Below are positions 19,118 through 20,694 of a stretch of 42,192 bases of DNA, piece by piece. The notes beneath the pieces are model-generated. The model was not told the DNA's origin, made no database searches, and saw only the letters and a program-made list of their open reading frames with translations. Origin of the DNA: a virus; the IMG/VR virus record IMGVR_UViG_3300047673_000112, positions 1 through 42,192 of that record, one strand, 5' to 3'. The position numbers and the translations under genes are program-made. Numbering within the stretch: the first letter of the stretch is position 1; each line of letters starts with the position of its first letter.

Positions 19118-19885
19118 TTAGTCCCTATCATCCTCACCCGGAACATGCTCATCCGACGCGGCCAAATCGTAGTGAGACTGCTCACTGTGCAACGGGACCA
19201 CGTTCGACGGGGCCCGCAACCGGTCAAGCTCCAACTGCATCGCACCCACCTTCCGGGTTAGTTCCATCAGCAACTCATCCACAGACAGGTCACGCGCCTT
19301 GGCAGTCCCAGGCTCCGGCATTGCTGCCCAATCCCGAACCTCAGACAGCGTGAACGCCTTCGTTATCGGCGCCTCCAGGATCTCCGTGATAACCCCACGA
19401 CGCCACCCCAGCGCATCCTCCAACATCGGGCGCGACTTACGCAACGGAGTCACCTCACCATCACGCCACCCATAAAACGACCGCTCAGCCCCCACCGACC
19501 AGCCCCGGAAAATATCCGCCGGCCCCCGCCGCGACTCGTCCAACTCCTCCTTGATCAGGCGCGATAGTTCGGCGCGGTTGTCCTTTGTCTCGGCGCGCAG
19601 CTTGCGGCCCCGGTTTGCAGCAAGCTCCTTAGCCGCATCCTCACGCCCTACAGCGATCAGTTCCTCCTCGGTGACCTCCACTACCGAAGCCATCCGCGCC
19701 AGCGTCTCAGCCGGCGCTACAACCTTTACCTGATCGCCCCTACCGACCGCCTGGTAACCGTTCACGATGTTCCTCCACCTTGTATCTGACATGCCGAGTT
19801 CTTCGGCTGCCTTGCGGGCCGAGATGTGCAGTCTCTTCTGGGCGTCTCCGATGAGCTTGCCCTCGGGTGTTTGCATGTTTTCCAT
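19118..19885 (-). CDS. immunity repressor with two HTH domains
   Basis: A 255-residue protein from ATG 19885. Residues about 10-45 are an atypical XRE-like HTH (ISARKAAEELGMSDTRWRNIVNG); a linker follows, then about 105-171 resembles a second HTH with the actinobacterial prophage pattern GAERSFYGWRDGEVTPLRKS and LEDALGWRRGVITEIL. The C-terminal part (about 200-235) is a helix that could mediate dimers. It is divergent from a Cro-like gene across a region with three TTATGCGAA copies, and upstream of the ImmA-like and integrase genes. No Shine-Dalgarno lies before ATG 19885, pointing to a leaderless mRNA. An in-frame ATG 12 codons upstream would extend into the operator. Confidence 0.8.
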   Translation of the reverse strand: MENMQTPEGKLIGDAQKRLHISARKAAEELGMSDTRWRNIVNGYQAVGRGDQVKVVAPAETLARMASVVEVTEEELIAVGREDAAKELAANRGRKLRAETKDNRAELSRLIKEELDESRRGPADIFRGWSVGAERSFYGWRDGEVTPLRKSRPMLEDALGWRRGVITEILEAPITKAFTLSEVRDWAAMPEPGTAKARDLSVDELLMELTRKVGAMQLELDRLRAPSNVVPLHSEQSHYDLAASDEHVPGEDDRD

Positions 19886-20053
19886 GTCGCTAGCTTGTTC
19901 GCGAAAGTTATGCGAAGTCAATTAGGCCGACTACGTGCTTTGTTCGCAATCACAATCGTGTAATTCTCATTTTTCCGCGTACTTACGCTGTTTTCCGAAA
20001 AACTTATGCGAACTGTGTTGACTTCGCATAACTTCGCAGTGCATGATTGACCT
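19886..20053. promoter_or_regulatory. divergent repressor/Cro control region
   Basis: Three exact copies of TTATGCGAA or its complement: 19908-19916, 20004-20012 and 20023-20031 (the last two form an inverted repeat 10 bp apart). A palindrome TTCGCGAA lies at 19898-19905. -35 TTGACT boxes: plus 20018-20023, minus 19921-19916. Each is 36 bases from its ATG. Plus -10 CATGAT at 20042-20047 (18-base spacer); no convincing minus -10. Both genes lack ribosome sites. Confidence 0.75.
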
Positions 20054-20302
20054 ATGGAAAACAAGTTCAGGGGCCACAGAGTCGCCCCGCTCAACCAGGA
20101 CCCGAAGGCGGTCCGGTGGGCACTTGCAGCCACCCGAATGTCACAGGAACAGCTGCGGTCCCGCACCGGCATCTCCGCATCACTCATCAACGAAATCCTC
20201 TCCGGCAAACGCAACGCCACACCGGAAAAGCTCGGCCTCATCGCCGACGCCCTCAACTGCCCCGTCAGCGTCCTCGAAGCAAAAAAGGACTGGGCAGCAT
20301 GA
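20054..20302 (+). CDS. Cro-like XRE-family regulator, probably leaderless
   Basis: An 82-residue protein with an XRE HTH at about 29-60 (MSQEQLRSRTGISASLINEILSGKRNATPEKL) and a short C-terminal helix (LGLIADALNCPVSVLEAKK). It is the first gene of the rightward early operon and divergent from the repressor, the normal place for Cro. No ribosome site precedes ATG 20054; the -10 at 20042-20047 puts the transcription start at about the A of ATG. Stop overlaps the next ATG. It likely competes with the repressor for the TTATGCGAA sites. Confidence 0.85.
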   Translation: MENKFRGHRVAPLNQDPKAVRWALAATRMSQEQLRSRTGISASLINEILSGKRNATPEKLGLIADALNCPVSVLEAKKDWAA

Positions 20303-20694
20303 GCACCCACCAGCACGCAGACAAAGAGACGTATGTATACCGGCTCTTCAACGCAGACCGGGAACTCATCTACATCGGATGCACCCACGACGTAGAGGCC
20401 CGGATCAACGCACACCGCGTAAGCGCCTGGTGGTATCCGCAGGTTCACTTCTCATCCGTCGAAGACTTCTCGGACCGAACCACGGCCCACGCCGCCGAGA
20501 TGAAAGCCATCTTCACCGAGAACCCGAAATGGAACATCCGCCACCGCTCACTAGGCACCACCGGATGGACTGCGCAGATGTACCTCGACTACATCAAGGC
20601 AGTCCAGATGACCGGCCCTCAGTACGCCTTCCACCGGAACTGCGTGAAGCGCGCGCAGCGGTTCCTATCAGCGCTTGAAACCCAAGCCGCGTGA
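20299..20694 (+). CDS. GIY-YIG domain protein
   Basis: A 131-residue protein from ATG 20299. Residues 11-40 match the GIY-YIG core: YVYRLFN (Tyr12, Tyr14), LIYIGCTHD (Tyr25-Ile-Gly27) and Arg35 (ARINAH); an Glu at about 57-60 or 74-77 would complete the site. GIY-YIG enzymes cut or nick DNA. There is no extra DNA-binding domain, so it is not a usual homing endonuclease; small phage forms may act in recombination or exclusion. Second gene of the early operon, coupled to the Cro-like gene. Confidence 0.75.
   Translation: MSTHQHADKETYVYRLFNADRELIYIGCTHDVEARINAHRVSAWWYPQVHFSSVEDFSDRTTAHAAEMKAIFTENPKWNIRHRSLGTTGWTAQMYLDYIKAVQMTGPQYAFHRNCVKRAQRFLSALETQAA

Follow-up and report, generated by a model that had tools for sequence, protein, structure and literature searches.

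We consider it likely, as one joint reading, that the window (the whole 42,192-nucleotide stretch of viral DNA analysed here) carries the immunity switch of a temperate actinobacteriophage in which two divergent promoters, P_rep for the repressor and P_cro for cro, would give leaderless transcripts and share operators of the ACTTCGCA type. The host of the phage is an actinobacterium, and the region has the make-up of an immunity switch with opposed repressor-like and Cro-like genes, a pair that probably decides between dormancy and killing. As in a lambda-type switch, two genes for HTH proteins diverge from a control region that lies between them:

19118–19885, minus strand, ATG at 19885: repressor-like protein of 255 aa with an N-terminal Cro/CI-type HTH (open reading frame and N-terminal identity).
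20054–20302, plus strand, ATG at 20054: Cro-like protein of 82 aa, HTH_3 (Pfam HTH_3, E = 2e-10).

The N-terminus of the repressor shares 38–55% identity with the N-termini of annotated immunity repressors and their relatives, while the Cro-like protein has a relative in Streptomyces phage TurkishDelight that is annotated as Cro. Beyond the repressor lie an ORF for an ImmA-like metalloprotease and a tyrosine integrase, and cro is followed by a GIY-YIG endonuclease gene (20299–20694) that overlaps the cro stop codon (ATGA), an order also seen in Gordonia phage Holliday. A sequence search of the PDB returned no useful match, and structure prediction for the repressor from a three-row alignment reached a pLDDT of 43 and was not used. 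A DNA-level search for relatives in phages gave no match; protein searches traced this repressor N-terminus to phages of Gordonia, Mycobacterium and Streptomyces, and it was then found in 49 viral contigs and 19 cellular-genome loci, most of them with a divergent Cro-like gene. This genome scan used alignment A2, alignment A1 being too diverse. We grouped the loci by P_rep layout into group A (the window, Gordonia, Mycobacterium and similar) and group B (mostly Streptomyces).

The control region is bounded by mirrored sequence. TTGACTTCGCATAACTT occupies 20018–20034 on the plus strand and its exact reverse complement 19905–19921; the mirrored arms noted in a preliminary description of this DNA are therefore real, and at 17 bp are 1 bp longer than given there. 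In 2,000 dinucleotide shuffles of 19876–20063, the longest inverted repeat was 11 bp, compared with the 17 bp observed. ATGGAAAACA is also common to both starts over 10 nt (19876–19885 and 20054–20063). The arms and the candidate promoter boxes are as follows:

19905–19921, minus strand: left arm of the 17-bp perfect inverted repeat (repeat search).
20018–20034, plus strand: right arm of the 17-bp perfect inverted repeat (repeat search).
20018–20023, plus strand: P_cro −35 box TTGACT (sequence; TTG at −37 to −34 in 82% of relatives).
20042–20047, plus strand: P_cro −10 box CATGAT, 6 nt before the ATG (32/33 cro loci, and 13/13 loci of a second set, have [CT]ANNNT equally far from the start).
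19916–19921, minus strand: P_rep −35 box TTGACT (most group A relatives have TNGACT equally far from the start).
19892–19897, minus strand: P_rep −10-like CAAGCT, a weak match 6 nt before the ATG ([CT]ANNNT there in 72% of 18 group A loci).

The sole sigma-70-like site found in 19840–20100 is the plus-strand TTGACT-18-CATGAT, which, in agreement with the preliminary description, sets the predicted transcript start at or adjoining the cro ATG. Its further statement that neither ATG has a ribosome site also held, as no Shine-Dalgarno (SD)-like 4-mer lies upstream of 19885 or 20054, and we recovered the equal distance it gave from the first T of the arm to the A of the ATG, 36 nt on both strands (20018 to 20054 and 19921 to 19885). 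Such equality would be expected if both genes are leaderless, since a −35 box with a 17–18-nt spacer must then sit 35–36 nt upstream of the start; two leaderless promoters would explain the equal distance, and no duplication is needed to account for it.

Both transcripts had been proposed to be leaderless. Comparison of about 40 non-redundant actinobacterial loci, whose upstream sequences were aligned on the start codon, strongly supports this proposal for cro and supports it for the repressor as well, where the case is weaker. Each start was scored for [CT]ANNNT ending at −9 to −7, an SD 4-mer in the 20 nt upstream, and a pyrimidine at −1, with 148 annotated genes from TinyDot and Holliday as the control set. 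At 33 cro loci, the box was present in 32/33 (97%), an SD 4-mer in 0/33 and the pyrimidine in 31/33 (94%), compared with 3%, 60% and 45% of the control genes, respectively. The aligned cro starts display T at about −35, T at −7/−8 and C/T at −1 (0.98 bits), and a purine-rich ribosome-site signal is absent from their upstream sequences. A second set of 13 cro loci from cellular genomes (Modestobacter, Streptomyces, Mycobacterium, Actinoallomurus and others), gathered after the features had been fixed, had the −10 box at the expected place in 13/13 and a pyrimidine at −1 in 13/13; the one SD-like 4-mer lay upstream of the −10. The cro gene of the window combines the features of a leaderless gene, namely a −10 at the fixed distance (6–8 nt), no SD, and a purine at +1 after a pyrimidine. 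In locus L058 the cro start is further downstream and is preceded by AAGGAG, an exception that fits because a leader is expected to require a ribosome site. In L005, L010 (phiT46-1 type) and L013, the expected start of the rightward transcript coincides with an ATG or GTG (ATGCGTACC/GTGCGTACC), which may mark a short leaderless ORF ahead of a ribosome-site-led gene; in loci of the phiT46-1 type, an ORF that has a ribosome site of its own precedes the HTH gene.

The window's repressor displays the same leaderless features as its cro, with a weak −10. Among 18 group A repressors, [CT]ANNNT occurs in 72%, an SD-like 4-mer in 39% and a pyrimidine at −1 in 89%, whereas the box is found in only 4% of group B repressors, with the pyrimidine still in 83%. 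An unlikely alternative is that cro alone is leaderless; the repressor would then be expressed from a leadered transcript that begins upstream, or from a second in-frame ATG, at 19876, and the mirrored P_rep bases would act only as operator. The weak CAAGCT points this way, as does the GGA 4 nt upstream of ATG 19876, a possible internal start. So do Arthrobacter L018 and L069, which have the closest repressor N-termini (65–70%) and lack the leaderless features; in both, the repressor instead follows an AAAGGA-containing leader and a divergent Cro is missing from its usual place; the cassette-swapped repressor of L015 likewise has an SD-like GGAAGG. The weak box, the internal ATG and the Arthrobacter leaders also count against a leaderless P_rep, together with the SD-like 4-mers of group A and the Streptomyces-type P_rep, whose words are opposite in orientation and whose −10 does not fit [CT]ANNNT. 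However, group A repressors repeat the 35–37-nt distance from TNGACT to the start along with the pyrimidine and box at the frequencies above, no SD precedes 19885, and no other sigma-70-like site was found on the minus strand of the region, all of which argue for a leaderless repressor transcript. ATG 19885 also aligns with the sole start codon of L018 and L069.

Repeated ACTTCGCA words, mostly in tandems spaced by about 10 bp, have the appearance of operators for these promoters:

20021–20028, plus strand: candidate operator word ACTTCGCA, the first of two in the P_cro tandem (sequence comparison).
20031–20038, plus strand: candidate operator word ACTTCGCA, the second in the P_cro tandem, spaced 10 bp from the first (sequence comparison).
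19911–19918, minus strand: candidate operator word ACTTCGCA in P_rep, at the mirrored position (sequence comparison).
19900–19905, minus strand: TTCGCG, a further operator-like word in P_rep, spaced 11 bp from the preceding one (sequence).
20004–20012, minus strand: third TTCGCATAA copy, inverted, directly upstream of P_cro (sequence).

WCGCR words recur at about −30/−20 of cro in groups A and B. At group A repressors they stand at about −31/−21, on the opposite strand from those of cro, and those at group B P_rep, placed at about −26 and −16, point the other way. The recurrent pattern is one of direct repeats 10 bp apart (11 at the window's P_rep) rather than of palindromes; one inverted word pair, with a 10-bp spacer, is present in the window. 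In the aligned loci the two promoters appear to carry identical words that co-vary within loci, and on this comparison mirroring is general in the clade of the window, with this phage as the extreme case in which the arms are identical. In Actinoallomurus L087, the operator words read GTCGCA in both promoters, which suggests that both word sets changed together with the binding protein.

The preliminary description had interpreted the shared bases as a duplicated, inverted promoter-operator-start block, with the residues MEN at the head of both proteins as its trace and common control as a probable consequence. We compared the two promoters of each locus zone by zone, within and across loci, by permutation. 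The −35/operator zone was more alike within than across loci, with 11.3 and 9.8 of 21 positions matching, respectively (p = 0.003; p = 0.001 when the window was left out), whereas neither the −10-to-start zone (p = 0.69) nor the first codons (p = 0.20) showed within-locus likeness, all of these p-values being optimistic since the loci are related rather than independent and, for genes with several possible start codons, the choice was made by eye. Confinement of the likeness to the −35/operator zone suggests that the operators are kept alike by a common binding protein, so that common control is retained from the earlier proposal. Full-block duplication was rejected after the promoter had been split into zones. 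We accordingly regard as improbable the account in which one inverted duplication copied the whole block from gene to gene and left the first residues and promoter shared by descent. Identity over 17 bp and 10 bp at equal offset, and promoters that are more alike within a locus than across loci, would favor it, but the 19 bases between the two common stretches match at 6/19, which is chance level, and the likeness does not extend beyond the −35/operator zone. In relatives the two proteins do not have their first residues in common, and starts of the ATGGAA type turn up on one gene or the other alone; among the loci compared, only the window has MEN at the head of both proteins.

It is very improbable that the words are asymmetric monomeric binding sites of the L5/TipsytheTRex stoperator type, with further sites in the genome blocking elongation: although the group A words are directional, non-palindromic and aligned with transcription, as in the stoperator systems of cluster A phages (PMC9283540; PMC9934374), the window holds 9 ACTWCGCR sites against 4.9 expected, no clear excess, the tandems (window, TinyDot, Holliday) occupy both strands of the immunity region, elsewhere there are just scattered, chance-like matches and no dispersed sites were found, and the divergent cro arrangement is unlike that of cluster A.

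The spacing of group A loci is nearly constant, with 166–168 bp from start to start in 12/14 loci, and two further elements lie between the promoters:

19949–19964, unstranded: central dyad ATCACA-N4-TGTAAT (8–10 of 10 consensus positions in 18/18 group A loci).
19943–19948, plus strand: TTCGCA word adjoining the central dyad (sequence comparison).

The group A consensus of the dyad is ATNACA-N4-TGTNAT, adjoining a WCGCA word. Its distance to the repressor start is 62–64 bp in 13/14 loci measured (about 63 bp in the window) and to the cro start 87–89 bp in 13/14, where the cro position of L058 in the spacing counts is the predicted transcript start; spacing is constant despite only 32% identity in group A over the stretch from the dyad to P_cro. 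Many relatives carry TTCGAACA and a CAGGTCAG-like word beside the dyad, both of which are missing from the window. Because the center of the dyad falls at about −71 of P_rep and the P_rep −10 is weak, the arrangement suggests that the dyad may be an activator site. More tentatively, the mirrored leaderless promoters, the one-turn direct-repeat operators and the dyad at about −71 of P_rep may together form a locked switch in which the dyad serves as activator site or loop anchor.

From these features we infer the transcript starts, the assignment of proteins to words and the direction of regulation. P_rep (minus strand) and P_cro (plus strand) would each have their transcription start point on the first base of the start codon, and both leaderless mRNAs would be translated by the 5′-terminal ATG route common in actinobacteria; leaderless mRNAs with a 5′ ATG or GTG are translated robustly in mycobacteria (PMC4633059). 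The ACTTCGCA-type words, situated between −35 and −10 in the same orientation to their own gene and about one helical turn (10–11 bp) apart, would be bound by repressor and/or Cro through their HTH domains, excluding RNA polymerase. Repressor would thereby shut P_cro and lead to lysogeny, while Cro and/or excess repressor would shut P_rep.

The layout appears to outlast changes in specificity. In L015, the repressor C-terminus is 90% identical to that of the window, while the N-terminal HTH, cro and the operator words differ; its words are TTTCCTATAG twice, 10 bp apart, and here too 36 nt separate TTGACA from the cro ATG. It appears that the specificity cassette was exchanged as a unit. The C-terminal part of the window's repressor (residues about 101–255; 19118–19600) is also 48–67% identical to L017/L016, with differing N-terminal HTH, operators and cro, and the apparent exchange point in L015, L016 and L017 lies near DNRAELSRLI.

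Among known phages, Gordonia GMA1, TinyDot and Holliday, Mycobacterium phiT46-1 and Streptomyces TurkishDelight have homologous repressor N-termini (about 43–57% identity), and their immunity regions, like the window, contain a leaderless-type P_cro and tandem WCGC words. All but phiT46-1 have a divergent HTH/Cro-type gene, and unlike the window none has an exact mirror of the arms or a shared MEN. The annotated starts of GMA1 Orf34 (repressor) and Holliday gene 55 (cro), in loci L002 and L004, lie upstream and overlap the predicted promoters, with the leaderless starts downstream. In lambda, cro has a leader and a ribosome site, and the operators are inverted half-sites. Lambda cI mRNA from PRM, like the repressor mRNA predicted here, is leaderless, as is PaaR2 mRNA (PMC8630535). 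In mycobacteriophage BPs, the repressor and Cro promoters of gp33/gp34 diverge with an operator between −35 and −10 of PR, where the window has candidate operators, but BPs differs in its palindromic 12-bp half-sites, tetrameric repressor and attP inside the repressor gene (PMC4557955). The telomere phage PY54 is likened here by transcript type; its cI and cro mRNAs are both leaderless by RACE (PMC4488713), the property predicted from sequence for the window, although its CI/Cro are gammaproteobacterial and lambda-like, with a single Cro operator. No promoter or operator mapping for the window's repressor family was found in the literature searched, which covers subscription papers incompletely.

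A switch with both genes leaderless is already known, in PY54; what is new is the predicted family-wide layout of mirrored tandem operators with locked spacing and a central dyad. The observation itself is confirmed, and the leaderless reading is probably correct. The analysis yields predicted start sites and operators that can be put to the test in an immunity system widespread among phages of Gordonia, Streptomyces and Mycobacterium, with M. abscessus prophages included, and promoter distance offers a check on start sites in public annotations, such as those of Holliday cro and the GMA1 repressor. Conditions that favor leaderless translation would tune the switch if both of its arms are leaderless. 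Should the locked arrangement also prove true, the decision between lysis and lysogeny would bypass Shine-Dalgarno initiation on both arms and depend on the capacity for leaderless translation.
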